Shown here one piece after another: positions 4,185-62,175 of a stretch of 64,000 nt of DNA. Numbering within the stretch: the first letter of the stretch is position 1; the number at the start of each line of letters is the position of its first letter. The notes under the pieces are model-generated. The model did no database searches and had not been told where the DNA came from. It saw nothing but the letters and a program-made list of their open reading frames with translations. The DNA is taken from assembly GCA_033398695.1 (NCBI GenBank), contig CM065802.1, positions 202,449,096 to 202,513,095 of the forward strand, read 5' to 3'. This stretch comes from Orobanche coerulescens. Taxonomy: Eukaryota > Streptophyta > Magnoliopsida > Lamiales > Orobanchaceae. Both the position numbers and the translations under genes were made by a program.

Positions 4185-4480
4185 GGGTGTGGGCCGCGGC
4201 ACAAGGTGTGTGCGCCGCGGCACACAAATTTCTCCAGTTGTTGGTCGAGCGAACTGTACTGTGTGCCGCGGCACACCCATCCGGTGCCGCGGCACAGTGC
4301 CGAGTCAGTGCCGTGGCACACCCGTCCGGTGCCACGGCACACCCGTGTGACATCTGCGACCAAAACCCGATCAGACGGTGCCGCGGCACACACGCAGTCG
4401 CCCGCGGCACACTGCCGAACCCTGGGAGTAAATTTTTGGCCTGTGCCACGGCACACTTCGGCTGTGCCGCGGCACACAAA
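4185..4480 (+). repeat. GTGCCGCGGCAC palindrome array in U3 of D
   Basis: About ten copies or near-copies of a perfect 12-bp palindrome occur here. The CCGCGG cores sit at 4194, 4215, 4266, 4287, 4311 (CCGTGG) and 4332 (CCACGG), giving pitches of 21-24 bp inside clusters and about 50 bp between them. Further copies lie near 4380, 4405, 4445 and 4467. The array ends just upstream of the presumed TATA. Confidence 0.9.
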
Positions 4481-4491
4481 GCGGTCAACTG

Positions 4492-4497
4492 TATAAT
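4492..4497 (+). promoter_or_regulatory. Putative TATA box, D 5' LTR
   Basis: TATAAT lies about 20 bp past the last palindrome, where the other LTRs have a TATA box. The consensus match is weak. Confidence 0.4.
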
Positions 4498-5135
4498 CTC
4501 GTTCTTATTAGACGAGATCGGCCATTTTCCTTCATTCTTCACCTGCGCGCGAGAGAGAGAGAACTAAGGGGGAGAACTTCTCAAGCATTCATCAATTGGG
4601 GGTTGATTTTCATCATTTTCCTTCGGTTGTGAGGCCCGAATAATCAATCTAATGCGCGTTCTACGGATCTTAGTACTTGAATCTCCAAAGGTAATATCTC
4701 TTAGAACCCTATTTTCGATTAATTTGGGGGTTTTGGGTTTTTCTTCCGATTCGTTCCGTTTTGTTGGTGGATTCATGATGTATACGATTAATATTGTTAG
4801 TATCTTTAGTTTTCCTACGGATTCATGGATATTTTGTGGGTTTTTATGGAATCGAGAGGGTTTGGTTGTGGTCCGCCCTCGTTGTTATTTTTGGTACGAA
4901 TATACATGAATCGTAGGCGGGTTTCGGGTGTATTCCATTTCCGTATTCGTTTAGAGTTGGTTGTGATTGTGTTATTCGAATCGTTAGGTTCATTTCCGCC
5001 GGTTCCTCGCGGTCGTGTTCGATTCTTCCTTTCCGTTCGTATCACCGTCTATTAACCGAGGCAAGTATCCTTATGAACTTACAATCTTGACATAGTAGTA
5101 TTGTATGAGAAATGGTGTGTGTGTGTGTGTATGCT

Positions 5136-5265
5136 CACTACGGGTTAGATCCGACGGGGTCTCGGTAGGGGTCCACAGAGACGTGGATCGACGAGCTTGC
5201 TTTTAACCACTACGGGTTAGATCCGACGGGGTCTCGGTAGGGGTCCACAGAGACGTGGATCGACG
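5136..5265 (+). repeat. Duplicated 58-bp module in D 5' LTR
   Basis: Direct copies start at 5136 and 5208, essentially identical to those at 1739-1868 in LTR1. A GT dinucleotide run precedes them. Confidence 0.85.
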
Positions 5266-5837
5266 GTTAATTGTGGTGCATTTTACAAATGTTATTTGAT
5301 ATTGGCATTTCCGGAAATGAATGTTTTGGAATTATGTTCTCTTGAATTGCATGCATTACTATTTGTGTAAGATGTAAGTCGTTCATTTGGTTACTTGTAC
5401 TAGCGTAATTGCTAACCCCTCTGGGGACCCGTTTTGGGGAAATTCGTTTTATGAATTTTAGGTCAGGTTCATCGAGACGAGCGGGTGCTGGACCAGTATG
5501 CGGATGATGGCCGTGCGTGATGATTGTGCACGAGTGGTGTCTTATTACTTTCTATCTTTTTATTTTTGTGGTCTTTAAACTAGTAGAAGTACTCGAGTAC
5601 TTAAGAACTTTTACTCTTCGGGATTGTATCGTTGTTTATTATGTTTGTGTCGGATTATGGTATTATGTTAAACCTGTTGAACCGGGTGGATTATTTTGTT
5701 GGGCGTCTTTATGACGAGATATTTTTCTGTTGCTTCTGTGAGTCGATGAGTATGATGCTTGATCAGCCTGGTGGGTCCCATATAGGGATTCACGGTGCTG
5801 TAATATACCTCGGATATCCTGGGGGTGTTACATAAAA

Positions 5838-5849
5838 TGGTATCGGAGC
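5838..5849 (+). other. Primer binding site of element D
   Basis: TGGTATCGGAGC lies five bases after the LTR end. It matches the plant initiator tRNA-Met primer site TGGTATCAGAGC with one mismatch. Confidence 0.85.
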
Positions 5850-6070
5850 CCTAGGTTTATGGATACCTAGGCTTGTCGATTTATTGGGTCTTGTTGTATT
5901 TTGTTTTGCACATCATCATCACGCTGCCATGATTCCGGTACTACCAGTGCCCGTAAGTTTTCTTTCCTCTGTTCCTTATACTCTTGTATCGTACCTCTAG
6001 TTCTCGATTTGCGATCGTTCTTTTCTTGTACTTACCATCGTATGGCTTTTGCTACTTATTTAACTCCAGT

Positions 6071-7145
6071 ATGGATGCTGGAAGAGGTCGTGGTCGTGGT
6101 CGCGGTCGTGGTCGTGGATGCGGCCGGGGACGTGGGGCAGCCGGTGGGGCGGCCACGTCACAGTCTTCGGGAGCCAGCAGTATCGGCGACCGTCACAGTC
6201 ATGCTTCTTCTCAGGAGCGCGCCGACCTTGGTATTGCGGCTGTTATGCAGCAAATGGTGAACCAAATGGCGGCAATAGCTCAGGCGGTTCAGAATCCGGA
6301 TCCGGCCCATGCTAATCGGGGCGGAGCGGATCGTTGGCTTCAGGATGTCATCAAGATGCATCCTCCTCAGTTTTCGGGAGCTTCAGACCCGATCGGCTGG
6401 GAAGGGTGGATCAAAGAGATATCTAAGGTCTTCACTGCTACCAACTGTCCCGAGGACCGTAAAGTCCCTATTGCCCAGTACTTTCTCACAGGGGACGCTA
6501 CGGATTGGTGGGAGGCCGTTGGGCCCAAAGACCATGTTGCTTCGTGGACCGAATTCCAAGGACTGATGGAGACTGAATATTGCCCGTGGCGTCGGCCGAT
6601 GTGCTCGAGTACATGCTTTCTATGATGCTCAACCACGGGATATCCCCGTATCTCAGGCTATTGCCGACTTTAATAAGGAGTTGGGTTATGTGAAGACCCA
6701 AGTTGTCGAGGAGAGCGACAAAATTTTTCATTTTTCCAGACGGATGAAATTGTCGATTCGGGACTATATGTCGGGGCTCGTCTGTACTACCTTGAAGGAT
6801 TATCAGAGTAGGGCCCTTGCTTACGATATGTCAGTGACAGCTAGCGAGGCGGCCCGCGAGAGCAAGAAGCAGAAGTCTGCCGGGAATTTTTCGGGCCACA
6901 AGGGTGGGGGTCAGCAGAAATCCCAATCTGCTAACTTCCCCGCCGGTGGTGGTCCAGCTCGTTCCGCTGGGGGTCCTCGTGGAACTACCAGTGCTCCTTT
7001 CCGTGACGTGAAGTGTTTCAATTGTGGCCGTATAGGCCACGTCAGTCGTACTTGTTTGAGCCCTTTGCTGACGTGTAATCGGTGGCCACCGGTCACAAGG
7101 CCGTCTGGCCGAGAGGGAGAAAATCCTTGGTGCCCGGGCTTCCAT
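6071..7145 (+). pseudogene. gag: Gag of element D, frameshifted
   Basis: Gag would form the particle that packages the element RNA. The ATG at 6071 starts [10 protein letters not shown], an arginine-glycine-rich N-terminus, and matches the Gag start of element C. The capsid-like region includes WEGWIKEI and TDWWEAV. Around 6590 an extra base relative to C moves the rest into another frame, which continues through LGYVKTQVV and MKLSIRDYMSGLV to a CCHC zinc knuckle (CFNCGRIGHVSRTC, about 7014-7055). After the knuckle the frame is lost again, and a second knuckle seen in degenerate form in C is not readable. The break near 6590 lies in CAG/CCG-rich sequence and could be a consensus error. Confidence 0.85.
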
Positions 7146-7167
7146 TCCAGCGCCTAGGGAACCAAGT

Positions 7168-8748
7168 GTGAATCAGGGATCGTTTGCTCCTCAATCTCCG
7201 CCGAGTGCTGGTCGGGGGAGAGGTCGGGGTCAGCCCTCCAAAGGGGGAGCTTCCAGCGTCGGCTCAGCCCACCCGCGTGTCTATGAGATGCGGAGAGCCG
7301 ATGATCCAGCGGCGACCGTAGCGACAGGTACCGTTCATATTCTTTCTCATCCTGTCAGTGTGCTTTTCGATTCTGGTGCAACGCATTCATTCATATCTCT
7401 GGATTGTGTGCGCCGTTTGAGTCTCGACTGTTTGACGCCTTGTGAGCCCTTCATCGTTAAGATTCCTAGCGGTGATAGGATCGTTGGTGATCAGGAGGTT
7501 CGAGACTGTTCTGTGTTTATTTGTGAGAGGGCTTGGCCCTCTAATCTTATTGTTGTGGGTATTGAGGGTGAGGACTTAATTCTCGGGGATGATTGGCTCG
7601 AGCGTCATGGTGCAATCATGAACTACCGCACGAGGATCATCACCATGTTAGCCGATGACGGCACCGAGCACTCTTTCGCCGGGCGAAAGAGGGGGAACCA
7701 GAAATTCATTATTAACTCCTTGAAGGCGATGAAACTCCTGCGAAAGGGGTGTATTGGCTATTGGTGCTACGCCTTGAAGGCGGAGAGTGGTGGAGTCGAA
7801 CCTTCATCGATTCCGATCGTTAATGAGTTTCCTGATGTATTTCCTGACGAGTTACCGGGATTGCCACCGGATCGTGAGGTCGAGTTTGCTATAGAGTTAG
7901 AGCCGAGTGCGGCTCCTATTTCGAAGGCGCCCTATCGCATGGCACCTTCAGAAATGTCCGAGTTGAAGAAGCAGTTGAGTGAACTTCTTGAGTCGGGGTA
8001 TGTTCGACCGAGCGCCTCGCCTTGGGGCGCACCGGTCCTGTTTGTGCGGAAGAAGGATGGTTCACTACGTTTGTGTATTGACTATCGCGAACTAAACAAG
8101 GTGACCATCAAAAACAAGTATCCTTTGCCGAGAATTGACGACTTGTTCGACCAGTTGCAGGGAGCTGCGGTATTCTCGAAGATTGATTTGAAATCGGGGT
8201 ACTATCAGCTCCGGGTGAGAGAGTCCGATGTGCCGAAAACAGCTTTTCGGACGAGATACGGACATTATGAGTTTGTAGTTATGCCTTTCGGGTTAACTAA
8301 TGCGCCGGCGGTGTTCATGCAGTTGATGAACAAAGTCTTTATCGAGTATTTGGATAAGTGTGTCGTCGTCTTCATTGACGATATTCTTATTTATTCGAGG
8401 AACGAGGAAGAGCATGCCCATCATTTGCGGATAGTGTTAGACATTTTGAGAGCCGAGAAACTCTATGCGAAGTTCTCGAAATGTGAGTTCTGGCTGAAGG
8501 AAGTGATGTTTCTAGGTCACGTGATTTCAGCCGAGGGAGTTAGAGTGGATCCGCAGAAGATCGAGGCAGTGTTGGATTGGGCACCGCCCAAGAATGTGAG
8601 AAAGCTCCGTAGTTTCTTGGGTTTGGCTGGTTACTATCGTAGGTTCGTCGAGGGTTTCTCGAAACTAGCTCGGCCACTTACGCAGTTGCTCCAGAAATCC
8701 GAGAAGTTGTCTGTAATGACGAGAAGCAGTCGAGTTTTGAGGAACTGA
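7168..8748 (+). CDS. pol: Pol of element D: protease and reverse transcriptase
   Basis: This open frame of 526 codons holds the aspartic protease and reverse transcriptase that process Gag-Pol and copy the element RNA. The protease motif DSGATHSFI lies at about residues 68-76. The RT domain at about 255-430 has [29 protein letters not shown] and the catalytic FIDD near 402-405. [11 protein letters not shown] near the end marks the RT thumb/RNase H link. The first ATG is only the start of the open frame; in this lineage Gag and Pol are normally one polyprotein. Compared with element C, the frame is disturbed near 8705 just before the RNase H domain. Confidence 0.92.
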
Positions 8749-8756
8749 AGAAGCGT

Positions 8757-10712
8757 TTGACTTCAGCTCCGGTTTTGGCGTTGCCATGTGGCAACGAGGG
8801 ATTTTCCGTTTATAGCGATGCTTCGGGTCAGGGTCTTGGGTGCGTATTAATGCAGCACGACAAGACCATTGCCTTTGCGTCGAGACAATTGAGGCCGTAT
8901 GAGCTTAACTACCCTACTCATGATTTGGAGTTAGCGGCAGTGGTTTTCGCGCTCAAGATTTGGCGTCACTATCTTTTCGGCTCTGCATGTCAGATTTTTA
9001 CCGATCATAAAAGTCTGAAATACATATTTACTCAGCGGGAGTTGAATATGAGGCAGAGGAGGTGGTTAGAGCTGATTAAGGATTATGACCTCGAAATCCT
9101 TTATCATCCGGGCAAGGCGAACGTCGTGGCCGACGCCTTGAGTCGGAAACCGATTGCATTGCGATCGCTTGAGATCCTTACGCCTCAGTCCGGGCTTCGG
9201 CGAGCTTTGATCGAGTTAGATGTTGAGGTTCTGTTGCCGGGAACTGTCGGGCAATTTTGTGCTTTGGAAATCTCGTCGTCTTTGATCGATGAGATTAAGC
9301 TGAAGCAGTTAGATGATCCGATGATTACTCAAATCCGAGAGAACGTTCTTAAAGGAAAGTCTCCTGGGTTTGTGATTCACGAAGATGGTGTTTTGAGATT
9401 TCGGGGTCGGCTTTGTGTTCCGAACGACTCAGAGTTGAGGCAGAGTATTTTGCGTGAGGCCCATGCTACACCTTATTCCGTTCATCCTGGTTCGAGTAAG
9501 ATGTACAAGGACCTGAGAAGGAATTTCTGGTGGAATGATATGAAGGAGGAGGTCGCGCAGTTTGTAGCAAGGTGTTTGACTTGCCAACAAGTCAAAATCG
9601 AGCACCAGCGACCGGCTGGGCTTTTGCAGTCACTTCCCGTTCTGGAATGGAAATGGGAATATATATCGATGGATTTCATTACGAGTTTGCCGAGATCGAG
9701 GTCGGGCATGAATATGGTATGGGTGATTGTTGATCGTCTGACCAAGTCGGCACATTTTCTGGGCATCAAGGACACTTGGGGCCCGGAGAAGTTAGCTCGT
9801 GTGTTTATCGCGCAGATTGTGAGGCTTCACGGTACTCCGAAGTCTATTGTTTCGGATCGTGATGGCCGTTTTGTATCGCACTTCTGGCAGGCGGTGCATA
9901 AGGCGTTGGGTACCCGTTTGCGTTTGAGTACCTTTTTTCATCCCCAGTCAGATGGACAGTCGGAACGCACTATGCAGACGTTCGAGGATTTGTTGCGTGC
10001 CTGTGTTCTCGATTGGAGTAGTGACTGGGAGGAACATTTGCCATTGATCGAATTCACGTACAACAACAGTTGGCACGCGTCGATTCAGATGGCACCGTAT
10101 GAGGCACTTTATGGGCGGCGATGTCGATCACCGATTTGTTGGAATGAGGCGTCCGATTTGGTCGGGACCGAGCCGGATGTCGTTTTAGAGACGAGGCGGA
10201 AGATAGAATTAATTCGGGAACGGATGTTGACTGCCCAGAGTCGACAGAAGTCATATGCCGACGTCCGTCGTCGACCTTTGGAATTCGAGGTGGGAGACCA
10301 CGTTTTGCTAAAGGTGTCGCCGACGAAGGGAGTTTTTCGTTTCGGGAAGAAAGGGAAGTTGAGTCCGAGATTTATCGGCCCCTTTGAGATCCTCGAGCGA
10401 GTCGGTTGGTTGGCATACCGTTTGGCGTTACCTCCGGCCTTGAGTCATGTTCATAGCGTTTTTCATGTTTCCCAGCTGAGGAAATATGTCCCGGATCCTA
10501 GTCACGTCATCGATTAGGGTGAGATTGATATTGCTGAAGATATTACTTTTGAGGAGCGTCCTTTGAAGATTTTGGAGCATCGTGAGAAACGATTGAGGCA
10601 TAAGACCATCCATTTGGTCAAAGTGCAGTGGTCGAGACACGGTGTCGAGGAGGCAACTTGGGAAACCGAGGATAGCATGCGTGCTAGGTACCCTGAGTTG
10701 TTTGTTTCTTAA
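8757..10712 (+). pseudogene. pol: Pol of element D: RNase H, integrase, chromodomain-like tail
   Basis: RNase H begins with [10 protein letters not shown] (about residue 19) and includes TDHKSLKY. Integrase follows with a zinc-binding region (H near residue 236, CLTC near 271), then the catalytic triad: D in MDFITSLP, D in SDRDGRF and E in DGQSERT, spaced as in D,D35E integrases. The first frame closes with TAG at 10515-10517. Beyond it the same frame continues to 10712 with VKVQWSRHGVEEATWE, the type of chromodomain tail carried by Tekay/Del chromoviruses. That tail is thought to guide insertion into heterochromatin. The stop separates tail from integrase, so the copy is probably defective. 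Confidence 0.88.
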
Positions 10713-10734
10713 GTTTCGGGACGAAACTTATTTT

Positions 10735-10747
10735 TAGAGGGGTAGAA
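10735..10747 (+). other. Polypurine tract of element D
   Basis: The purine run AGAGGGGTAGAA ends directly at the TG of the 3' LTR, where plus-strand DNA synthesis would be primed. Confidence 0.85.
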
Positions 10748-10989
10748 TGTAATATCCGCATTTTTCCTTCCCTTGTATTTTCATTTTTGGTGTATTTCTC
10801 GATCGTAGTGACCCTCGTGTACCTTTTAGTGTGTCCTTCCTGTCAACTGTTGAACTGTATTCTCGTTATTGTTGTGCGGAACCGCCGTTTCGGGGTTGCC
10901 GTGGATCCATTTCGTGTTATTGGTTCCCAAATATTGATTCCTATCGTTTTTATTCTCTTTCCGGATCATTTTTATCATTTTGGGACCTG

Positions 10990-11255
10990 AAGGGGTGTGG
11001 GCCGCGGACAAGGTGTGTGCGCGGCACACAAATTTCTCCGATTGTTGGTCGAGCGAATCAGACTGTACCGCGGCACACCCATCCGGTGCCGCGCACGATG
11101 CCAGTCGGGCCGCGGCACACCGTGTGACATCTGCGACCAAAACCCGATCAGACCGGTGCCGCAGACACGCAGCCGTGGCCGCACACTGCCGAACCCTGGG
11201 AGTAAATTTTTGGCCTGTGCCGCGGCACACTTCGGCTGTGCCGCGGCACACAAAG
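10990..11255 (+). repeat. GTGCCGCGGCAC palindrome array, eroded copy
   Basis: This is the counterpart of 4185-4480. Several palindromes have lost 1-4 bases, and some CAG-containing spacers read differently (CCAGTT on the left, CCGATT here). A TATAAT-like site follows at 11266-11271. Confidence 0.8.
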
Positions 11256-11905
11256 CGGTCAACTGTATAATCTCGTTCTTATTAGACGAGATCGGCCATT
11301 TTCCTTCATTCTTCACCTGCGCGAGAGAGAGAGAGAACTAAGGGGGAGAACTTCTCAAGCATTCATCAATTGGGGGTTGATTTTCATCATTTTCCTTCGG
11401 TTGTGAGGCCCGGATAATCAATCTAACGCGCGTTCTACGGATCTTAGTACTTGAATCTCCAAAGGTAATATCTCTTAGAACCCTATTTTCGATTAATTTG
11501 GGGGTTTTGGGTATTTCTTCCGATTCGTTCCGTTTTGTTGGTGGATTCATGATGTATACGATTAATATTGTTAGTATCTTTAGTTTTCCTACGGATTCAT
11601 GGATATTTTGTGGGTTTTTATGGAATCGAGAGGGTTTGGTTGTGGTCCGCCCTCGTTGTTATTTTTGGTACGAATATACATGAATCGTAGGCGGGTTTCG
11701 GGTGTATTCCATTTCCGTATTCGTTTAGAGTTGGTTGTGATTGTGTTATTCGAATCGTTAGGTTCATTTCCGCCGGTTCCTCGCGGTCGTGTTCGATTCT
11801 TCCTTTCCGTTCGTATCACCGTCTATTAACCGAGGCAAGTATCCTTATGAACTTACAATCTTGACATAGTAGTATTGTATGAGAAATGGTGTGTGTGTGT
11901 ATGCT

Positions 11906-12035
11906 CACTACGGGTTAGATCCGACGGGGTCTCGGTAGGGGTCCACAGAGACGTGGATCGACGAGCTTGCTTTTAACCACTACGGGTTAGATCCGACGGG
12001 GTCTCGGTAGGGGTCCACAGAGATGTGGATCGACG
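11906..12035 (+). repeat. Duplicated 58-bp module in D 3' LTR
   Basis: Copies start at 11906 and 11978 and match the pair in the 5' LTR. Confidence 0.85.
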
Positions 12036-12629
12036 GTTAATTGTGGTGCATTTTACAAATGTGATTTGATATTGGCATTTCCGGAAATGAATGTTTTGGA
12101 ATTATGTTCTCTTGAATTGCATGCATTACTATTTGTGTAAGATGTAAGTCGTTCATTTGGTTACTTGTACTAGCGTAATTGCTAACCCCTCTGGGGACCC
12201 GTTTTGGGGAAATTCGTTTTATAAATTTCAGGTCAGGTTCATCGAGACGAGCGGGTGCTGGACCAGTATGCGGATGATGGCCGTGCGTGATGATTGTGCA
12301 CGAGTGGTGTCTTATTGCTTCTATCTTTTTATTTTTGTGGTCTTTAAACTAGTAGAAGTACTCGAGTACTTAAGAACTTTTACTCGTCGGGATTGTATCG
12401 TTGTTTATTATGTTTGTGTCGGATTATGGTGTTATGTTAGACCGGTTGAACTGGGTGGATTATTTTGTTGGGCGTCTTTATGACGAGATATTTTTCTGTT
12501 GCTTCTGTGAGTCGACGAGTATGATGCTTGATCAGCCTGGTGGGTCCCATATAGGGATTCACGGCGCTGTAATATACCTCGGATATCCTGGGGGTGTTAC
12601 AGAAAAGACGTTCCATGACTGTTGTCCGG

Positions 12630-12637
12630 TTTATATA
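12630..12637 (-). promoter_or_regulatory. TATA box of LTR B1
   Basis: TTTATATA on the plus strand reads TATATAAA on the minus strand, directly downstream of the array at 12648-13008. Confidence 0.55.
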
Positions 12638-12647
12638 CACTGGACAG

Positions 12648-13008
12648 CTTAGCGTGCGCTATCGTGGCACCGAAACAAACTGCCTGACCAAAACACAGTG
12701 TTAGCGTGCGCTAACCACAAGTGTTAGCGTGCGCTAACGAGACCTCCAGACCCAGTCAAGTAGCTCCTGGACTGCCCCTGAACAACCAGGTAGCGTGCGC
12801 AATCCTCACCCTAGCGTGCGCTACTAATGCACCCTAGCGCGCGCTATGTTACCAAATAGCGTGCGCTAACCAACGTTCTAACCCAGTCCAATAGCCTCTG
12901 GACTGTTTCTGCACCACCCGTTAGCGCGCGCTAAATACAATTCTTAGCATGCGCTAACTACAGCACCTTAGCGCGCGCTAGCCAAAAATTATAGCATGCG
13001 CTATCAAC
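12648..13008 (-). repeat. TAGCGTGCGCTA palindrome array with groups of four
   Basis: Motif copies start near 12650, 12701, 12724, then 12790, 12812, 12834, 12856, then 12921, 12944, 12968 and 12991. The pitch inside groups is 22-24 bp. The groups are separated by spacers containing an imperfect inverted repeat of the type CAGTCCAATAGCCTCTGGAC. Group starts are about 131 bp apart. Confidence 0.9.
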
Positions 13009-13398
13009 TCAGAGAGACAGCAGCAAAACATCTCAGAAATGGGTATGACGACGGATATCCCCAAGTTTGGGAAATTACAAAACGGTCCTAAATGTCCGAA
13101 AATCACGATATGGCAAAGAATAACCAAACCGAAGCTCACAACATGTTTAACAACGTTGAATGAACTTACGAGAAACCCGAAACAACATTTTCGAATGAGT
13201 TTCGCAAGAATCGAACTCAAGCGCGGAAAAGTCGGTTAAGAACACGGAACTCAACAAAACGACATCGAAATGAATTCGGATGTCAAAAAGTGCAGAATTA
13301 ATCATTCTCAGAATGACGAAATGGTCACAAGCATGTCGTCAAAACTCCCGCCGAAAAAAAAATTACCAAAAATCGAAATTGCGGATATTACAATTTCT

Positions 13399-13812
13399 TT
13401 TATTGATACACCTAATTATAGTGACTAACTAATATAGAAATATATAATATTTCCACGAGATTTAAGGTTTAAATTTTTAATATATAGTGCATGCTACTAT
13501 ATTAAATTTCTCTTTGTTTGGGATTTTTATTTCTTAATTAATGAAAACCTGAAATATTTATGTAAACATAATCAATTCCTATTTATTCGTAATTCATTCC
13601 TTAATTTGTAAAAATTAATAAGGTAGGTAGGAGTTATTTGAGGTATAATTATAAATATAATTAATGCAATGATGATTAGGCCAGTAATTGATTATGTGTC
13701 AGTTGAAGCATGAGAGGCTGACACATAAGCACACGAAGCACCAGCAAAAGACATGTGGCAGCCGAAGCATGAGAAGCTGCCACTTAGGCTCAACGTATTC
13801 TGCATTAGTATA
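13399..13812. repeat. 0.4-kb direct repeat, first copy
   Basis: It starts TTTATTGATACACCTAATTA and ends around CTGCATTAGTATAT. It recurs at 14149-14560, with the same pair at about 26797-27210 and 27540-27955. Confidence 0.8.
13695..13787. repeat. Two adjacent stem-loops with a shared loop
   Basis: TGTGTCAG pairs with CTGACACA, and TGTGGCAGC pairs with GCTGCCAC. Both loops contain GAAGCATGAGA. The pair is conserved in all four copies of the 0.4-kb repeat, with slight decay in the last copy. Confidence 0.7.
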
Positions 13813-17883: not shown

Positions 17884-17884
17884 G

Positions 17885-18460
17885 CAGGAGTGTTAGCGTG
17901 CGCTAATCCTCAAGGTTAGCGTGCGCTAACGAGAAAAATTACAGCCAAAATAGTTAGCGTCAGTCCAAAGAGCTGACTATTGGCGTTAGCGTGCGCTACT
18001 CAAACGTGGCGTGCGCTAATAACCTCGGTAGCGCGTGCTATCGACCCGATAGCGCGGCGCTACTGGACATTAGTCGAGTCGGTGGCGTCGCCCGAACCCA
18101 CCTGATACGTTAGCATGCGCTACCACACAAGCGTAGCGTGCGCTAACGGATCCGTTAGCGTGCGCTACCATACAAACGTAGCGTGAGCTAATGGCGCCCG
18201 ATCAGGTTGATGAGTAAAGCGTCGATCTTTGGACACTCACGCTAGCGCACGCTAGCGGGCATCATCGGCGTGCGCTAGCCTCAACATTAGCGTGCGCTAG
18301 CATATGTAGCGTACGCTAATACGATAGTCGAGAAGGTGGAAAACAAGACCTTTGCCACTCCCGGGGCTACTGCAAGCGCGCGCTCTGAAACAAGCGTAGC
18401 GTGCGCTACTAAGGGACCCCTAGCGCGCGCTATGCAGAAAAAATAACGTACGCTAGGTAT
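17885..18460 (-). repeat. TAGCGTGCGCTA palindrome array in C 3' LTR
   Basis: There are more than fifteen copies or variants, many at about 23-bp pitch in groups of four, separated by longer spacers with CAG/CTG-containing inverted repeats. The array lies between the TATA box and the conserved outer U3. Confidence 0.9.
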
Positions 18461-23606: not shown

Positions 23607-25835
23607 TGTAACACCCCGAGAAATTCGGAATATGTTACAGCGCCGTAGACCCCTACATGGGACCTACCAGGCTACAATAGAAAAACTCCACTCGACTAAC
23701 CATCTTGGTTAGCGAGGATACACAATTAAATAATATGACATATAAAGATACGCCCAGAGCAACCGGCAAAATAAGCATCAACCAACAACGTGACAATTTA
23801 AAGCAATACAATACGGAGTTTGAAACAAAAAGCCTATGTACTCGCGAGTACAATCTATAAGTTTAAAACTGTGGGAACAACCATATCGAAATGGACAAAG
23901 GAAATAAATAGACCCAAATGCACATGTCAACGACCCTGGCCAACATCCTCGTACTGTCCTGGTGCCCGCTCGTCCGGATAATCATAACCTGAAATCCATA
24001 ATAAGAATTTCCCCGAAACGGGTCCCCAAAGGGGTTAGCAATTACGCTAGTACAAGTAATCAAGGCAAACCAATCGCTTACACATTTCATAGTACATGCA
24101 TCAATATCATTTCAAAAACCAAAACTAGACATGTCCTTTCCGGAAATAAACAGTCAAACAATTTTGCCTTGGGAACAGAGTCATATCATAAATTCCCGCA
24201 CGAGGCCTCTAAGGACCCTCCCGCACTGGCTATGTTATAAAAACAAAACACGCACATGCATCGCCTTGGGAATAGAGTCATATCATAAATTCCCGCACGA
24301 GGCCTCTAAGGACCCTCCCGCACTGGCTAGCTAGACAAACTCATGAATCTGGGATGCAAACCTTTGGATTCCCTCCTTGATCCCGTCGAACCAACACGAG
24401 GTGAGCAAATCACACACAAAATACATTACCATTCCACGTTAAGCATAAAGGTTTCCAAGAATACTTGCCTCGAATTATTGACGACGCGAAGAACGGAAAG
24501 GAAAGTCACCGACGAACGCTAGGAACCAATGAAACCGAACCTAACGATTCGAAGAACACAATCACAACCATTTCTAAATGAATACGGAATTGGAATACAC
24601 CCGAAAACCCGCCTACGATTTATGTATATTCGTATATAAACAACAACGAGGGCGGACCACAACCAAACCCTCTCGATTCCGTAAAAATCACGAAATATAC
24701 CATGAATCCGTAGGGAAACTAAGAATATCAACAAGATTAATCATATTCATCATGAATCCATCAACAAAACGGAACGGATCGGAAGAAAATCCCAAAACCC
24801 CCAAATTATCCAAAAGTAGGGTTCTAAGAGATTACCTTGGATTTAGGATGAGAAACACAAGTGGATGATGTTAATCTACACCAAGAACTCAAGCAAAAGA
24901 ATCTCTGAAGTGATTGGAAGAAGAAAATCGCCTCAAATCGCCTCTGGAGTCGCTCGGCCGCGGAAGGAGAGAAATGAGAAATTGTGTTTATCTCGGTCAA
25001 CTCCCTGGTTTATATAGCCAGTGAGTGTTAGCGTGCGCTAATCCTCAAGGTTAGCGTGCGCTAACGGGGAAAAATTACAGGCCAAAATAGTTAGCGTCGA
25101 TCCGGTAGCGGACTATTGGCGTTAGCGTGCGCTACTCGAAGCGTAGCGTGCGCTAATAACCTCTCGGTAGGGCGTGCTATCGACCAATAGCGTGCGCTAC
25201 TGGACATTAGTCGAGTCGGTGGCGTCTGCCGAACCCACGATACGTTAGCGTGCGCTACCACACAAGCGTAGCGTGCGCTCACCGAGCCGTTAGCGTGCGC
25301 TACCATACAAACGTAGCGTGCGCTAACCGGCGCTGGCTGGGTTGATAGTAAAGCTGTCGATCTTGGACACTCACGCTAGCGCACGCTAGCGGGCATCATC
25401 GGCGTGCGCTAGCCCTCAACATTAGCGTGCGCTAGCATATGTAGCGTGCGCTAATACGCTAGTCGAGAAGGCCGGAAAAACAGCCTTTGCCACTCCCGGG
25501 CTACTCGCTAGCGCGCCATTTAAACAAACGTAGCGTGCGCTACTAAGGGACCCCTAGCGCGCGCTATGCAGAAAAAATAACGTACGCTAGGTATGAAATA
25601 TGAACGGTTCAAAACACCGGAAGGTGAACGAAACATCCAACGGAACATCTCAACGGGTATCATAACATAGAATGGACCCACGGCAACCCCGAAACGGCGG
25701 TTCCGCTCAACAATAACGGGGATAAAATCTATAGATAATAGAAAAGATACACTGAAAGATACACGAGGGTCACTACTATCGGGAAATACGCCGAAAAAGA
25801 AAAAATACAAGGGGAAGAAAAATGCGGATATTACA
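23607..25835 (-). repeat. 5' LTR of element C
   Basis: It is about 2.23 kb with the same ends as the 3' LTR. Differences between the two LTRs are concentrated in the palindrome block. The TATA box is at 25009-25016 on the minus strand. Confidence 0.92.
25025..25570 (-). repeat. TAGCGTGCGCTA palindrome array in C 5' LTR
   Basis: This is the counterpart of 17885-18460. One clear group of four starts near 25245, 25268, 25290 and 25313. In the first spacer, GTCAGTCCAAAGAGCTGAC of the other LTR reads GTCGATCCGGTAGCGGAC here. Confidence 0.88.
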
Positions 25836-25840: not shown

Positions 25841-26790
25841 AAGAAAAATACTTTGATTCGGCGAAGAACAATGGATTAGATGATGTTATAATCACCTAGG
25901 ATACCCCAAAACACCTTTGGATGAAACAAAATCGGCAAGAAGTTCGGACCCCAGTCGCCCTCGTCTCAAACCCGTGGAGAGGAGAAGACATGAAGGGGAA
26001 ATGACGTTCCATGACTGTTGTCCGGTTTATATACACTGGACAGGTTAGCGTGCGCTATCGTGGCACCGAAACAAACTGCCTGACCAAAACACAGTGTTAG
26101 CGTGCGCTAACCACAAGTGTTAGCGTGCGCTAACGAGACCTCCAGACCCAGTCAAGTAGCTCCTGGACTGCCCCTGAACAACCAGGTAGCGTGCGCAATC
26201 CTCACCCTAGCGTGCGCTACTAATGCACCCTAGCGCGCGCTATGTTACCAAATAGCGTGCGCTAACCAACGTTCTAACCCAGTCCAATAGCCTCTGGACT
26301 GTTTCTGCACCACCCGTTAGCGCGCGCTAACTACAATACTTAGCATGCGCTAACTACAGCACCTTAGCGCGCGCAAGCCAAAAATTGTAGCGTGCGCTAT
26401 CGACTCAGAGAGACAGCAGCAAAACAACTCAGAAATGGGTATGACGACGGATATCCCCAAGTTTGGGAAATTACAAAACGGTCCCAAATGTCCGAAAATC
26501 ACGATATGGCAAAGAATAACCAAACCGAAGCTCACAACATGTATAACAACGTTGAATGAACTTACGAGAAACCCGAAACAACATTTTCGAATGAGTTTCG
26601 CAAGAATCGAACTCAAGCGCGGAAAAGTCGGTTAAGAACACGGAACTCAACAAAACGACACCGAAATGAATTCAGATGTCAAAAAGTGCAGAATTAATCA
26701 TTCTCAGAATGACGAAACGGTCACAAGCATGTCGTCAAAACTCCCGCCGAAAAAAGAAAATTACCAAAAATCGAAATTGCGGATATTACA
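25841..26790 (-). mobile_element. Truncated minus-strand LTR B2, second part
   Basis: This continues 15713-16474 and ends in GGATATTACA. It keeps the uninterrupted site GGGGAAATGACG (25995-26006), where element D is inserted in copy 1. The TATA box is at 26026-26033 on the minus strand. Confidence 0.78.
26040..26402 (-). repeat. TAGCGTGCGCTA palindrome array in B2
   Basis: It matches 12648-13008 with the same grouping and only a few base changes. Confidence 0.9.
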
Positions 26791-36662: not shown

Positions 36663-36846
36663 CTGGGGCCGCGGCACGAACCAAGTGAGCCGCGGCACAC
36701 GTAAGTGACCTGAAAGTCCCGAGGGAACTGTACCCTGTGCCGCGGCACAAGGATGCTGAGCCGCGGACCAGGAGGAAAAATAAGCGCCCAGGTATAGGCG
36801 CTGAACAACGTGAGCCGCGGCACAGATTAAGTGAGCCACGGCCCAC
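36663..36846 (+). repeat. GTGCCGCGGCAC palindrome array in a different LTR clade
   Basis: CCGCGG cores lie at 36669 and 36690, 36740 and 36761, and 36815 and 36836 (CCACGG): three pairs, each exactly 21 bp apart. The last inter-pair spacer holds another inverted repeat, AGCGCCCAGGTATAGGCGCT. The motif is that of element D, which belongs to another lineage. Confidence 0.92.
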
Positions 36847-40257: not shown

Positions 40258-41533
40258 TGTTAGGCGTATTTTTATACGCTTATTTATCATTATTTTATAT
40301 TCATTTGAGGTCTAAATCTGCTTAAATGAGCTTTTAATGCACTATTCTTCTATGTTTGGCAGGAAATTGGAGTTCGGAAGCTCGAACGACGAAAAACGGG
40401 CGAAAATGGCGATTTTTGGCCTGGGGCCGCGGCACGAACCAAGTGAGCCGCGGCACACGTAGGTGACCTGAAAGTCCCGAGCGAACTGTACCCTGTGCCG
40501 CGGCACAAGGATGCTGAACCGCGGCCCAGGAGGAAAAATAAGCGCCCAGGTATAGGCGCTGAACAACGTGAGCCACGGCACAGATTAAGTGAGCCGTGGC
40601 CCACGAGGCGGTTTTTGATGTTTTGGCCGTGGTTCTGGGCCGTTTTTGGAGCCTGTTCCCAACCTAATTCCCGGACGCGTTTTGGAGGCTGATGATAGTT
40701 ATAAATAGGGGTTTAAGGGCTGAAGACATCATCATCAGATCGAGGAGGAAGACATCGCGGGATCAAAGAACACAAGGAGAAGATTTGTGGGCGACGACAA
40801 GACCACGGATGCCTACGGTTTTTCTTAATTTTTCCGCATCTTAGTTTCTAGATCTTTTCGAGTAGGATTGTGATTGCAACCGATTACATGACGGTTTGAT
40901 TTATTTATTTTTAGTTCAATTTACTCGTTATTCGTATTGAGTTGGATTTTTCTCATTGTTCTTAATGCTTTTTAATTGTCTGGCCAACAGTTGAATTGTT
41001 ATGAATGTCTTTATGGATTCGGGAGATGAAATTTAGGCATAGTTCTTGTGAGAAAAATCATGATTGTCGTGAGATAGGGATATACTCATGGGAATTGTGA
41101 AGCCTATTTATTGTGGGGATTCTTGAACTGTTTTAGCTATTAATTATCTAATTCGAATAGGGATATATCGGGTTAATAATTCGTAGTATTTTCTATCGAC
41201 CTTGGGAAAGGCTTTAGAATAATTTAGGAATTCCTGGCTTACAATCAATTGAATAAAGGTGAATTGAATTAAATAAACATCACTCCTGATTGTTTGAGGT
41301 GAAAATCATAATCCTACACCCTTATTATTATTACTATTATTATTTTCTATTTATTTTTCTGCAATTAGTTTAGTAATAAATTCCATATAATTGTTCTTCA
41401 AATAAAATTGTGAGTTGACTATAATTTGGTACTTAGTGAAATCAGTCCTCGAGGGAATGATATCTTACTTATCACTTTATTACTTGTTGACACCGTGCAC
41501 TTGCGGCATAGTGTGAGGGACTTCCTCACAACA
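40258..41533 (+). repeat. 3' LTR of the 36.5-kb element
   Basis: It matches 36500-37773 with few differences, so the insertion is recent. The palindrome array is at about 40427-40605; some CCGCGG cores read CCACGG or CCGTGG. Confidence 0.93.
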
Positions 41534-46159: not shown

Positions 46160-46330
46160 CCGGCCGCCTTACGTACGTAACCGGCCATGGCCGAACTCGC
46201 TGCCTAGAAATGCCGGAAACGTTACATACGTTACCGGCCAGGGCCTTACGTACGTAACCGGCCTTACGTACGTAACTGCCGAGCACTACCGGCCGTAACT
46301 CGGCGATCTTGGCTGAGCCTGACGCCGGCC
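46160..46330 (-). repeat. TTACGTACGTAA palindrome array in E1
   Basis: Perfect or near palindromes lie at 46169, 46222 (TTACATACGTTA), 46246 and 46264, joined by CCGGCC blocks. This occupies the position that holds TAGCGTGCGCTA in the related LTR B. Confidence 0.85.
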
Positions 46331-50085: not shown

Positions 50086-50660
50086 ATGTTAGCGTGCGCT
50101 AGCCCTTGTGCATAGCGTGCGCTAACGTGTAATTTGGGTAGTCCGGTACCCTGTCCGAAACGCGGTAGCGCGCTACGTACCTATTTGTAGCGTGCGCTAC
50201 GGCCATACTACTAGCGTGCGCTAATATCCATTGTTAGCGTGCGCTAGCGAAATATTTGACGCCCAGTACTGGAGTCCAGAAAACCGTCTGCCCTCTGATC
50301 TAACCTCGATAGCGTGCGCTAAAACAACCGATTAGCGTGCGCTATAATATTGATTGCGTACGCTGAACATAACTCATAGCGTGCGCTATGAATTACTCCG
50401 GTGCAGTCCAGTAGCCACTGGACTCAACCTGATCCGTCCCTAGCGCGCGCTACTCCACACATATAGCGTGCGCTACTACAACCCGTTAGCGCGCGCTACT
50501 TACCACTCGTAGCGTGCGCTACAAATAATCTCACCTGCAGTCCAGTACCTTCTGGACTGCAGCCAGGACAACCTTAGCGTGCGCTAAAGCTGAGTGGTAG
50601 CGTGCGCTACCTATACCCAATTAGCGTACGCTAAAAGGAGTATGTAGCGTGCGCTACTCC
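50086..50660 (-). repeat. TAGCGTGCGCTA array with ~133-bp higher-order unit
   Basis: There are eighteen copies or variants. After a first pair (50088, 50113), four groups of four follow: 50164/50188/50211/50235, 50308/50331/50353/50375, 50440/50462/50484/50507 and 50573/50596/50619/50644. The pitch is 22-25 bp within groups, and group starts are 132-144 bp apart. Spacers carry inverted repeats such as AGTCCAGTAGCCACTGGACT. Confidence 0.93.
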
Positions 50661-56012: not shown

Positions 56013-58402
56013 TGTAACACCCCAAACTAGGCGGATATTACAGTGCCGTGGACCCCCGACTGGGACCCACCAGGCGAATGAAAATGAATGAATTACACAG
56101 GTAAATGTAGTACCGAACCACATTACAACATCAATTACTCCGACGAGGAGTTTTATACAACACACCCAGGATGAAATAGAATACATGTGTATTTTATGTG
56201 ACGATAAAATACACCACACTGAATGAAATGAGCATTCAAACGGAATGTCTGCAGCGGAATAAATAAAGGAAGCACAAATGACTGAATAAATGATGAGCAG
56301 TGGGGCCCCCTACTAGTATCACTGGGACTCCTCGCCGTCACCGTGCTCTCCCGTGCCTTAGCCTTGCCATGACACAAAGCAGCATCCCCAAGCGGTCGAT
56401 ACTGAACAACAATCCTCAAGGGTTGAAAATACACAATCATGATATATCCGAAATTATGAATTATTCTCACAAAACATACGCAATCAAACATGCTATATGA
56501 ATCGACTAATCGAGACGGCTCAAAGGAATGGCGCCACACTACGCCCGGGATGGAAATGTGTCCGTGCACAAGCCACCAACGATCAAACACGCGTGGTCTT
56601 GTACCTAATCAGTCTCACGAGCAATCGACTCGTGTGCACAGTCCAATGTGAGGCCACCAACCAACACACGACTATAATGTGCCCGACATGAAAATCCTAC
56701 ACATACCAACCGGCACGCCAGTATGACACGGAATGCCACAATATGACAAAAGTGACAATGAAAATGAATAATGACTCACCAAGATTGAATGATGGTGAAA
56801 TGAATGATAGCTCAATGAAATGGTCGGAACCGTCGTTCCTTATGACTGAGGTGATTAATTGACAATGACGAGTTTTGATACGATTAATACAATGATGAAT
56901 GAGTTATGATTATGAATGAACAACGACAAAAGGAATGAATATCCTTTTAACCGAGTAAGAATTAACTTACACAATACCGATGATGAATGTCCGTCCACGA
57001 ACAACGTCCTAAATGAAATATCGGTCGCTCGAACAACCTTGAATAACACAATTACCAATAATCCGATCATTACGCAAATCAAAAACGATCATAAACGACT
57101 CAAACATCGACACAACGATATCCGAGTTCGAATGAATCGAAACCAACTCCAAGATGAGTATTCCAAACCATTAAAACACTTTCAAGGATATCAATAATCC
57201 ATTAGGAATCCATAACTCATGATTACAACAACATCAATCGGAAAATCCCCAATTAACCGAAGTCAACCCCAAGGGTTCTTGGAATAATTCCGAAAATAAC
57301 CGTTTAAATCCGTAGGAATATATTTATCCAAGTTAGATAATCCATAACTAACATATTCCAATGATAATCCAAGCTTACACGAAGAAATCGGAAGGAAAAC
57401 CCAAAAATCCGAAATTCTAGATCAAAGAGTTTAATACCTTTGATTCGATGTGATGAAGATGATGAAATGATGATCAATCCGAAAGATGAGCTTGAAGATG
57501 ATGATTGATGATTACACCTCGAAGAATCCTCTCCGAATCGCTCGAAATCGCCCAAAACTACCGAAGGAATGAAATGAGATGGAAAATGACGAACTCTGAC
57601 TAAACTGTCCAATTTATACTCAGTCCATGTTAGCGTGCGCTAGCCCTTGTGCATAGCGTGCGCTAACGTGTAATTTGGTAGTCCAGTACCCTGTCCGAGC
57701 ACGGTAGCGCGCTACGTACCTATTTGTAGCGTGCGCTACGGCGTATTACTAGCGTGCGCTAATATCCATTGTTAGCGTGCGCTAGCGAAATATTCGACGC
57801 CCGATCGGAGTCGAGAAAACCGTCTGCCCTCTGATCTAACCTCGATAGCGTGCGCTAAAACAACCGATTAGCGTGCGCTATAATATTGATTGCGTACGCT
57901 GAACATAACTCATAGCGTGCGCTATGAATTACTCCGGTGCAGTCCAGTAGCCACTGGACTCAACCTGATCCGTCCCTAGCTCGCGCTACTCCACACATAT
58001 AGAGTGCGCTACTAAAACACGTTAGCGCGCGCTACTTACCACTCGTAGCGTGCGCTATAAATAATCTCACTGCGGTCGGTACCTTCCGGTGCGGCCAGGA
58101 CAACCTTAGCGTGCGCTAAAGCTGAGTGGTAGCGTGCGCTACCTATACCCAATTAGCGTACGCTAAAAGGAGTATGTAGCGTGCGCTACTCCTCAAGCAC
58201 AGCTTGCAACGAAAATGACAATGATGATAAACACGGCACGAAACTCCAATCAGATTAGTGATGAATGACGATTGATACACGATACAATTACTCTGAATGA
58301 TGAATACCATGACTGAATCTGAGTGATAAATGATCAATAATGAAATTACTGAGTACCAATTACTGAATGATAAATACTGAATGACAATTACTGGGTATTA
58401 CA
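56013..58402 (-). repeat. 5' LTR of element G
   Basis: It is about 2.39 kb, closely similar to 48473-50865. Many of the differences cluster where one LTR has ACTG or CAGT text and the other has TCG or CG. Confidence 0.92.
57625..58190 (-). repeat. TAGCGTGCGCTA array in G 5' LTR
   Basis: It has the same grouping as 50086-50660. The spacer inverted repeat near 58072-58095 is altered (CGGTCGGTACCTTCCGG) relative to the other LTR. Confidence 0.9.
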
Positions 58403-59427: not shown

Positions 59428-60286
59428 TGTAACACCCCCAATCCGCTCACGGATATTACATGCCGTAGAACCTTTCCTCAAGGATCTACCAGGCTGGTAA
59501 CAACATAGAACAACTCAACAATGCCTTTAAGTCTAAAATGACTCAGTAGACCGATTTGGTCTTTCAATAAATACATACAACTCAAACTCATTACATGCCC
59601 ACGCAGGGATCGAATACAACACACTCCCGTACAACGGGAAAGAATACTGCAGCGAAAAATAAACTATAACTAAACTAATGACATCATACAGATCCTCGTG
59701 TGATTAGTATCATTCATCTTTCATCACCCTTCGTGCCGACCATGTGTTATGCTCCCAAACCTGAATGCAAAAACAGACATCCACCCCCCGAATACTCAGG
59801 GGTTAGCAAAACTCCACTGTTTTGCTAGTGCAAGAACAAAGTGCAAATACGAGCCATATAATTCAAATTCCAAGAATAACAATAACCAGGAATCCTCAAA
59901 GTTCCAAACGTAACGAAAAGCACTTCCCGAGGCATGAGTTTGGTAAAACATTCCAAAACCAAAAGATCACAAATCAAGGGAAACAATTTATAAAACAGTT
60001 TAAAATGCCATCGAGAGTTTTAATAGAAAACAATTTAGGATTTCCGAATCCTTCTCTTTCCAAAAATCAATAGGGGTCACAGCCCAAAGGTTTTGTTTTC
60101 GCAAATAAAAAACCGACAACAGTTCACAGGGCCAGAGCCCAACATCACGTGTCATCGACGGACATAAAAATCAACACAACGTAATCACGCACGCGCATCG
60201 CCTAGGACCGGGACGAAGCCACAAATCCCACTCGAGGCCTCGAAGGACCCTCCCGAGCTGGCTAGCGAAACAAATCACACACATCT
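59428..60286 (-). repeat. 5' LTR of element E (E2), truncated by insertion
   Basis: It matches 44174-44985 nearly base for base, with an extra stretch near 60078-60125. It is interrupted at 60287 by a G-family LTR, and its far end is not in the window. Confidence 0.85.
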
Positions 60287-60967
60287 TATAACACCCCAAA
60301 CTAGGCGGATATTACAGTGCCGTGGACCCCCGACTGGGACCCACTAGGCGAATGAAAATGAATGAATTACACAGGGTAAATGTAGTACCGAACCACATTA
60401 CAACAATAATTACTCCGATGAGGAGTTTCAGACAACACACACAGGATAATACAGAATACATGTATATTTTATATGGAGATAAAATATACAACACTGAGTG
60501 AAATGAGTATTCAAACGGAATGCCTGCAGCGGAATAAATGAAGGAAACATAAATGACTGAAAAGACTGGGGGCCCCTTCTAGTATCATTGGGACTCCTCG
60601 CCGTCAACGTGCTCTCCACGTTCTTTCGCCTTGCCATGACCTGAAAAACAATATCCCCCAATGGGGTCAGTTACACAGAACAACAATCCTCAAGGGTTGA
60701 AAATACACAATCATGATATATCTGAAGTTATGAAATATCCTGTCGAAACATACGCAATCAAACATGCTATATGAATCAACTAACAGTACGGCTCGAAGGA
60801 ATGGTGCCACACTACGTCCGGGATGGAAATGTGTCCGTGCACAAGCCACCAACGAGTATCGATCGAATACACGTGTGGTCTTGTACCTAATCAGTCTCAC
60901 GAAGCAATCGACTCATGTGCACAGTCCAATGTGAGGCCAACAACCAACACACGAATTAAATGTGCCC
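60287..60967 (-). mobile_element. G-family LTR fragment (G2), interrupted by H
   Basis: TATAACACCCCAAACTAGGC (first bases mutated from TGTAAC) and the following 680 bp match the start of the G LTRs with more divergence. It stops at 60967, where element H begins. Confidence 0.8.
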
Positions 60968-61648
60968 TGTTGCTACCCAAAATATTATCCGGAGATAGAT
61001 ATTGCTGGAATGGATGGGATAGCAAACAAATGCAAGAGCACTTCCGTGAGAAAGATAAATAACACAAGATTTGCCGGGGTTGTTAGTCCCGGGCTTGAAT
61101 GCTCTCGCGAGATATTATTAATACCGATATTCGGGGATACAAGTACTAATGTAAGAATACAATTACAATGAGTGTAAAGTTTCTTGTTATCTTAGCTAGT
61201 GAGCGTGTAGATTGCCGGAAGAACCAGATTTGATGCTCTGTGAGTTCTTGTAACAAAGGTGATGAACAGTCGCGGCGGTGAGAGATCGACCACCTCTCAC
61301 GGCGAGTATTTAGCTGGATGTTTGGGCTTCTGGGCTTATGAATCCCTTGGAATCTGTCTAGCGGAGACTTGCTGCTTCTGCCGATCGTCTACTAGACGAG
61401 AGATTTGGAGAGAGAAGTCACAGGATGGATTCGGTGAGATAGTAGGAGCTTGATGATATGTATATTCTTGATATTTAGTGAATGTATCGGAATGTGAGAG
61501 AATGAGCTCGGCGTAGGTCGAGAATGAATTGGAGCGAGAACCTTTTTGGTGGAATGTATTTGGACGTAAGTCAAATGAATTCCGAACCGTAGTGGATGAG
61601 TTCTGAACAGAGAACTGAGAACCTTTTTCCAGTAGGAGGAGGTTCTCT

Positions 61649-61656
61649 ATTTATAG
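61649..61656 (-). promoter_or_regulatory. TATA box of LTR H
   Basis: TATTTATA reads TATAAATA on the minus strand, within CCTATAAATAG. Confidence 0.6.
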
Positions 61657-61669
61657 GACTTGGATATGC

Positions 61670-62175
61670 AGGGCGATCGCCTTTACTGCAATATAATAAT
61701 CGGGTGATCGTCTTTTAGCACATGGGCTGTCCTCAAAGCTGTAGGAGTTGTTGGCGATCAGTATGCGGTCGATAGGGGAGCTTACACGCGTCTGAGTTGC
61801 CGCGGGTGGTCCCAGACAACTTTCGGCGCGCATCTTGGTAGGTGAGGTAGGTGACAGGCTGTGGTCAAATGTCTTGTCTGTCAGCAAAAGATCTTATCTG
61901 CTGGCGAAGATCTCGTCAGCGCCTTTGGTGGATCTGCACGTGGGTGCTTTCCTGAGATCCAGTCCTTGATGGTTTAGACGGGCGATCATCTCTGCTCGGG
62001 CGCAGTTGATTGCCCTCGGCCGGTTAGTAGAGCAGATCGCCGGTACGCAAAGGCGATCGCCACAGGAGTCGATCGCTAGGTGCACGATGGTGGTTTGATA
62101 TCTTCGACTTGGCGAGCTAGTCGAGGTTTGACCGGAGTTGACTTGGTCGCTCGGCCTTATAGTCGATCGCTGTCG
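61670..62175 (-). repeat. GCGATCGC-type motif cluster upstream of the H TATA box
   Basis: GATCG-centred palindromes or near-palindromes lie near 61675, 61706, 61984, 62034, 62053 (GGCGATCGCC), 62070 and 62164. The position mirrors the palindrome arrays of the other LTRs, but spacing is irregular and the motif also appears outside the LTR. Confidence 0.55.

Follow-up and report, generated by a model that had tools for sequence, protein, structure and literature searches.

The 64,000-nucleotide stretch of Orobanche coerulescens contig CM065802.1 analysed here (hereafter the window) is a nest of plant retrotransposons whose long terminal repeats (LTRs) carry regular arrays of short dyad-symmetric sites upstream of a TATA-like box. 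We suggest, with moderate confidence, that these arrays are enhancers of the unique 3' (U3) region of the LTR, composed of oriented 12-bp sites for a dimeric factor, and that the type of array found in one element, D, was exchanged with an element of another lineage, H. The arrays are real, regular and, we think, probably functional.

Three motif types are present: T1, TAGCGYRCGCTA (TAGCG), in LTR1, B, C and G; T2, GTGCCRYGGCAC (GTGCC), in D and H; and T3, TTACGTACGTAA, in E. An earlier note on this DNA had reported an array with these motifs upstream of a TATA-like box in the seven LTR types that it named (LTR1, B, C, D, E1, G and H), and all seven have one. In the window, TAGCGYRCGCTA has 72 exact matches, all within LTR arrays, against a mean of 0.01 and a maximum of 1 in 100 shuffles; GTGCCRYGGCAC and TTACGTACGTAA have 11 and 3, all within arrays, and none in 100 shuffles each. 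A dyad scan that presupposes no motif (5-bp arms, at least three copies per 700 bp) returned 17 rows, all within arrays and some repeating one array, and none in each of 40 local shuffles. Its rows cover 9 of the 12 LTR copies, D3, H5 and H3 not being detected (5 and 3 denote the 5' and 3' LTR of an element). With up to two mismatches, the LTRs hold 8 (LTR1), 11 (B), 17 (C), 17 (G), 9 (D5), 4 (D3), 5 (H) and 4 (E) cores; exact copies are few in E (3) and in H (1, besides 5 with one to three mismatches). The last core precedes the TATA box by 10-12 bp in LTR1, B, C and G, by 16 bp in D and by 18 bp in E, and by 97 bp in H, so that the position "directly upstream" of TATA claimed before is right for six of the seven types and wrong for H. 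The TATA box of G5 is mutated. Arrays have a GC content of 0.53-0.67, against 0.34-0.42 in the rest, and observed/expected CpG ratios of 1.03-1.52, against 1.14-1.38. Over the whole window (1-64000) this ratio is 1.21, a high value for plant transposon DNA. The arrays are as follows.

210..619, plus strand: T1 array of LTR1; 8 cores (up to 2 mismatches to TAGCGYRCGCTA, 3 exact); TATA at 630, gap 10 bp
4191..4475, plus strand: T2 array (GTGCCRYGGCAC) of the D 5' LTR; 9 cores at up to 2 mismatches (12 at up to 3), pairs 21 bp apart; TATA-like TATAATCT at 4492
11065..11249, plus strand: T2 array of the D 3' LTR, with an internal deletion; 4 cores at up to 2 mismatches (5 at up to 3)
12650..13003, minus strand: T1 array of the truncated LTR B1; 11 cores in groups 4-4-2-1; TATA 12637-12630
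17894..18455, minus strand: T1 array of the C 3' LTR; 17 cores
25029..25589, minus strand: T1 array of the C 5' LTR; 17 cores in groups 3-4-4-4-2; TATA at 25016
26046..26399, minus strand: array of B2, tandem duplicate of B1; 11 T1 cores
36666..36844, plus strand: T2 array of the 5' LTR of H (36.5-kb element, tRNA-Asp-type primer site); 5 cores at up to 2 mismatches (6 at up to 3), pairs 21 bp apart; TATA at 36942
40424..40602, plus strand: T2 array of the H 3' LTR; 5 cores at up to 2 mismatches (6 at up to 3)
46169..46275, minus strand: T3 array (TTACGTACGTAA) of E1, the 3' LTR of E; 3 exact cores and 1 with 2 mismatches; TATA at 46150
50090..50656, minus strand: T1 array of the G 3' LTR; 17 cores in groups 4-4-4-3-2; TATA at 50077
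57631..58188, minus strand: T1 array of the G 5' LTR; 17 cores

A possible further array, degenerate and in minus-strand sense, lies at 61673-62303, where GCGATCGC occurs 3 times exactly and 6 times within one mismatch (shuffle means 0.03 and 0.6, largest 2 and 5) upstream of a TATAAATAG box, with a TATA near 61655.

Array architecture and the proposed binding sites

The T1 cores follow a regular pattern. In LTR1, B1, C5 and G3 the short spacings average 22.7 bp (standard deviation 1.2, n = 35), 29 of the 35 being 22-24 bp, and the cores form groups of up to four (G 4-4-4-3-2, C 3-4-4-4-2, B 4-4-2-1, LTR1 3-2-1-2) whose starts are 107-142 bp apart, mostly 122-142, with a 75-bp step in B as the single exception. 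The T2 cores of D and H stand in pairs 21 bp apart. The T1 core is a near-palindrome of 12 bp and not the full palindrome that had been seen in TAGCGTGCGCTA: the two central bases break the symmetry, and in the 40 cores with exact arms (LTR1, B2, C5, G3) the sense centre is CA in 33, CG in 5, TG in 1 and TA in 1, which gives 33 of 34 asymmetric centres in one orientation. Among 53 T1 cores with up to two mismatches (LTR1, B1, C5, G3), the 12 positions are near-invariant, with GCG and CGC kept in at least 51 of 53 per base, and the flanks are mixed. Complementarity between the flanks is weak at ±1 and ±2 (p 0.097 and 0.072, n = 40) and absent from ±3 to ±5, which fits a fixed footprint better than it fits selection for a hairpin. 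When the tetrads of B and G are set in register, identity is 89 of 96 positions in the cores, against 21 of 64 in the short spacers and 29 of 52 in one linker. Within a single array, spacers are as alike as shuffled ones in B1 and about two standard deviations above that level in C5, G3 and D5; being little or no more alike than shuffled sequence, they suggest that the cores outlive their surroundings. The linkers hold a second dyad, AGTCCAG-n-CTGGACT or a variant of it, twice in G, twice in B and once in LTR1.

50405..50424, minus strand: linker dyad AGTCCAG-n-CTGGACT between G tetrads; related copies at 50539-50558 (G), 12885-12904 and 12754-12773 (B1) and 430-449 (LTR1)

We would read these arrays as rows of oriented, dyad-symmetric 12-bp sites for a dimeric, sequence-specific DNA-binding protein, most likely a host transcription factor. 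The sites, regularly spaced (about 23 bp for TAGCG, 21 bp for GTGCC) near the LTR TATA box, would serve activation rather than repression, and the placement of the last core 10-18 bp before TATA in six of the seven LTR types speaks for an enhancer. D and E, having gained other site types, would have changed the factor that activates them. Of known plant motifs, T1 contains the brassinosteroid-response element (BRRE) CGTGCG and T3 a NAC-like TTACGT.

Palindrome rows can also fold, and the main effect of the arrays might come from hairpins of RNA or DNA that supply small-RNA silencing, as has been proposed for the palindromes of maize Sirevirus LTRs; the arrays would then be a target or by-product rather than a binding platform. 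We regard this as unlikely. Compared with 60 shuffles each, array RNA folds more stably in G (z -10.2), D (-6.4), C (-4.3), B (-3.8) and E (-3.1), with downstream controls at -1.3 to +0.5, and weakly so in H (-1.8, control +0.1); Sirevirus palindromes are described as hot spots of small RNA (PMC5311732, PMC10760457). Yet the LTR1 array (-2.2) equals its control (-2.35), and such z-scores arise from any row of self-complementary words, so folding does not decide for hairpins. The cores themselves lack a loop, keep to a length of 12 bp and point one way, and their flanks show no clear complementarity; these features speak against the hairpin reading.

A further alternative concerns how the arrays arose. 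Differences between paired 5' and 3' LTRs are concentrated in the array in C (56/555 sites against 23/1658 in the rest, p 3e-18), D (28/354 against 17/1500, p 1e-10) and G (23/558 against 37/1819, p 0.0085), and not significantly in H (7/179 against 24/1094, p 0.19); the B1/B2 duplicate has no such excess (5/354 against 23/1356, p 0.82). When differences separated by more than 10 bp are counted as events, the excess is modest in C (2.3-fold, p 0.02) and D (2.8-fold, p 0.018) and not significant in G (1.4-fold, p 0.39), H (1.5-fold, p 0.38) or B (0.3-fold, p 0.14). Array changes fall mostly in linkers and seldom in cores in C and G; in D the cores are most affected by count (31 of 132 columns, gaps included). 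In C, D and G the differences cluster within arrays as multi-base changes, as consensus errors in GC-rich repeats could cause, but that such errors, or neutral tandem-repeat growth, made or distorted the arrays seems to us very improbable. Cores are kept while spacers diverge (yet the paired LTRs of D differ in cores too), arrays recur upstream of TATA in seven LTR types, and the lack of an array excess in the B duplicate speaks against a general array error, without excluding one.

Local template switching was considered as a source of the array changes and rejected in the form tested, which looked for an exact reverse-complement copy within 80 bp in the other LTR. Among 19 multi-difference clusters (C 9, D 5, G 5, H 0), 5 had short matches, none better than shuffled replacements. 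The C 3' LTR contains a perfect 20-bp palindrome at 18141-18160, where the C 5' LTR differs at three bases.

Kinship of the LTRs and the array shared by D and H

Downstream of TATA, all 15 pairs of LTR1, B, C, D, E and G exceed the maximum of their own 60 shuffles, with z between 3.0 and 98; G-E (80 against a shuffle maximum of 73) and G-D (78 against 72) come out lowest. H fits none of the other LTRs there (z -0.3 to 2.1). Over the first 170 bp of the LTRs, likeness is strong only for C-D (z 39) and B-E (z 41), moderate for B-C (6.1) and slight for G (0.7-3.0). The earlier note's view that C and D, and likewise B and E, are pairs of one family with different motifs (T1 and T2, T1 and T3) is borne out, and motif type does not strictly follow LTR family: the motif is switched in D relative to C, and in E relative to B and LTR1.

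The same cannot be said of its claim that B and G have no kinship beyond the array. Their alignment downstream of TATA scores 95, and the best of 60 shuffles reaches 73 (z 6.4); over the first 170 bp nothing is seen (z 0.7). B1 and B2, which had been treated as separate cases, are a single truncated LTR, present twice through a tandem duplication of about 4 kb. Passage of the array between B and G as unrelated elements is rejected on account of this kinship; B, C, G and LTR1 being kin downstream of TATA, their shared TAGCG needs no transfer and ordinary descent is possible. With the cores masked, the arrays of B and G align (z 14.6, partly through the linker dyad), that of C aligns with neither B nor G above shuffles (z 0.5 and -0.2), and those of LTR1 and E align (z 7.1). 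The last result places the T3 motif of E in LTR1-like sequence, and the change in E looks like replacement in place, not a moved cassette. Most simply, T1 would be ancestral in this Ty3/gypsy group and the D and E motifs replacements.

D and H are a different matter. As the earlier note had it, they have a motif in common and are unrelated outside the array (z 0.2 downstream of TATA); they also share the 21-bp spacing and words beyond the motif.

4246..4259, plus strand: 14-nt word CGAGCGAACTGTAC, outside the cores and 3 bp before one; exact in D5 and H3 (40478-40491), with one mismatch in H5 at 36720, absent from D3
4432..4443, plus strand: word ATTTTTGGCCTG, adjoining a core, its last base inside the D core; in both D and both H LTRs as TTTTTGGCCTG, at 4433, 11207, 36655 and 40413

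The words common to D5 and H3, each beside a core, are CGAGCGAACTGTAC (14 nt) and ATTTTTGGCCT (11 nt outside the core). In 5000 shuffles of this pair a word of at least 14 nt appeared with a frequency of 0.0002, and two words of at least 11 nt in none. The 11-mer is present in all four D-H pairings (P 0.0023 for D5-H5, 0.0080 for D3-H5, 0.0077 for D3-H3). Among the other 20 pairs of the seven arrays, one word of at least 11 nt is found in LTR1-G (the linker dyad) and one in LTR1-E, and none elsewhere. In-register spacers of D and H are also alike (p 0.004 with H3, 0.011 with H5). The first 170 bp give z 4.9 for D-H through a T-rich alignment, which we do not count as evidence.

We posit that an array probably passed between D and the unrelated H lineage, which makes one credible exchange. 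Donation by the D lineage would be the likelier direction, as TTTTGGCCTG also stands upstream of TATA in C5 (at 25078, minus strand) and C is related to D; C3 lacks one base of this word. Recombination, for instance template switching between co-packaged RNAs, would be a suitable route. The broader idea of motif exchange between lineages hence holds for D and H, with words beyond the motif, and does not extend to B and G, where descent suffices, or to E, where replacement in place would do. As a more ambitious and still tentative proposal, which we hold to be possible but rather doubtful, a composite enhancer module with one orientation (12-bp sites in tetrads spaced 23 bp, a period of about 130 bp and a linker dyad) at the Ty3/gypsy TATA box may switch specificity within families, while an array of another type crossed between a gypsy LTR and a tRNA-Asp-primed element, so that promoter control would be swapped independently of the rest of the element.

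Several points weigh against the enhancer and exchange hypothesis. None of the searches matched a factor to the motifs, the H array is 97 bp from TATA, and the three, perhaps four, motif types in the window exceed the diversity that a single host factor would predict; shared duplication history may be part of the cause of core conservation. Where D and H are concerned, gapped local alignment of the core-masked D5 and H5 arrays is not significant (p 0.07), the 14-mer is in only one of the two LTRs of each element, H3 was chosen over H5 after its match had been seen, and the 11-mer includes a T run partly present in B1 (AATTTTTGGC; part ATTTTTGGC).

Known arrays in other elements

The closest known kind of array is found in the LTRs of Sireviruses (Ty1/copia), where palindromic repeated motifs (RM) lie upstream of TATA (Bousios et al., 2010, PMC2829016). 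The earlier statement that no named description exists is hence mistaken, and the arrays reported here are a Ty3/gypsy variant of a known LTR regulatory array. In the available text of that paper, RM resemble our arrays as high-copy, GC-rich palindromic boxes that are mostly placed a short way ahead of TATA, in the LTR's upstream half; the motif varies between elements, and near-identical motifs occur in elements with little other homology (PMC2829016). RM arrays form a CpG island upstream of TATA (PMC2829016); the present arrays are richer in GC than the rest, but the CpG ratios of the two overlap (1.03-1.52 against 1.14-1.38). RM copy number is at least 8 per element, with 3-14 in the 3' LTR (Table 3, PMC2829016); the 4-17 cores per LTR found here (up to two mismatches) likewise make a high-copy palindromic box, T1 being asymmetric at its centre. 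In contrast to RM, our arrays occur in Ty3/gypsy elements and a tRNA-Asp-type element, and where RM have a CGG-CCG core there is GCG..CGC in T1, CCG-CGG in T2 and ACGTACGT in T3; Tnd-1 is one listed Sirevirus RM that also lacks this core (PMC2829016). Spacing of about 23 bp in tetrads, a linker dyad and a single orientation distinguish the present arrays from RM as described in the available text, which, from a Ty1/copia data set, calls RM Sirevirus-specific (PMC2829016). Classic plant LTRs, according to the same text, carry, in two or three repeats, tandem cis-acting boxes that DNA-binding factors recognise (PMC2829016), unlike the higher-order pattern of up to 17 cores per LTR seen here. The arrays also recall maize Sireviruses in having a fast-changing, palindrome-rich regulatory LTR region, as the accessible parts of two reports describe it (PMC5311732, PMC10760457). 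Superfamily and motifs differ between the two. Bousios et al. reportedly described the maize Sirevirus palindromes in 2016 as hot spots of small RNA and of sequence evolution.

VANDALs are DNA transposons. Their VANC target repeats in Arabidopsis are, in the available text, short noncoding motifs, often in tandem, that vary between related elements (PMC5735166, PMC10398659), much as related LTRs here bear different motifs and D and E have switched type. The arrays could, by analogy, be docking sites for a fast-evolving VANC-like silencing or anti-silencing protein, encoded by element or host, with motif change as the trace of an arms race. VANDALs encode their own binding protein (PMC5735166, PMC10398659), and no extra DNA-binding domain was found in the 7 pieces scanned from among 21 open reading frames (ORFs) of 150 aa or more; these pieces contain retroelement domains, one weak DUF5320 match below the cut-off, or nothing. 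We consider this alternative improbable, and continue to favour sites for an activating host factor.

No report of such arrays in Ty3/gypsy LTRs was among the open-licence literature matches listed, which is not proof of absence, and the available text of PMC6911290 and PMC11963269 has none. Searches of viral contigs gave no match to a T1 or a T2 pair and none confirmed for the pol piece; the T1 pair had one match in genome contigs, bacterial and taken as chance, and the D array had none in plasmids. In the literature searched, the string TAGCGCACGCTA occurs in one paper, on let-7 in brain and retina.

If arrays of this kind are borne by both Ty1/copia and Ty3/gypsy LTRs, palindromic promoter arrays would be a general solution of plant retrotransposons and not a Sirevirus oddity. 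The D-H case, if true, would mean that promoter control passes between lineages, a point of relevance to the way in which silenced elements become active again. With a fixed 12-bp site, a set spacing and one orientation to work from, the binding factor can be tested for directly.

Elements and other features of the window

In a domain scan, the pol pieces of C and D showed the domains of protease, reverse transcriptase and RNase H and the zinc-binding domain of integrase, arranged as in gypsy elements; C has all four in order. Among the best 120 of 8000 scored, homologues of the C pol piece are plant pol proteins labelled, where a superfamily is given, ty3-gypsy or Ty3-I, and Rumex salicifolius supplies the best named near-full-length match (66% identity over 96%). 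In D, C, G and E the LTRs are 1.85-2.67 kb long, and the 5' LTR is followed by the primer site TGGTATNNGAGC, which we take to be tRNA-Met-like, as we take that of H to be tRNA-Asp-like. Gypsy pol order, such a primer site and long LTRs are features of the Tekay/Del type, and we presume the elements to be chromoviruses of the Tekay/Del lineage, a name not derived from a tree. No chromodomain was found in the 7 ORF pieces scanned, which cover whole pol frames only in part. In H, assignable coding was not found, and its ORF had no homologue at an E-value of 0.001; the H LTR pieces analysed end 1 base before the LTR end, which leaves the arrays unaffected. An Rfam search of the window and a tRNA gene search returned no matches. 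Target-site duplications are identical over 5 bp in C, G and H and match at 4 of 5 bases in D.

LTR B is truncated at its 3' side, and B1 and B2 are its copies in the tandem duplication of about 4 kb (without the nested D and C), which spans 2875-15568 and 15569-28962 and is 98.5% identical in its longest block. In the B flank, a sequence of about 263 bp at 15180-15442 and 28575-28836 matches its own reverse complement at 81-83%, as a fold-back or miniature inverted-repeat transposable element (MITE)-like sequence would. LTR B is interrupted by D (12602 / 3938) some 30 bp downstream of its TATA box, near the likely transcription start; LTRs are not commonly targeted by nested insertions, according to the available text of PMC6911290. 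G probably lies within the internal region of an element that has E1 as its 3' LTR: a purine-rich tract precedes E1, and at 59428 there is an LTR end, 92.5% similar, that has a primer site. A 78-bp tandem repeat of 2.8 copies (44984-45204) is found in the downstream portion of the E LTR.

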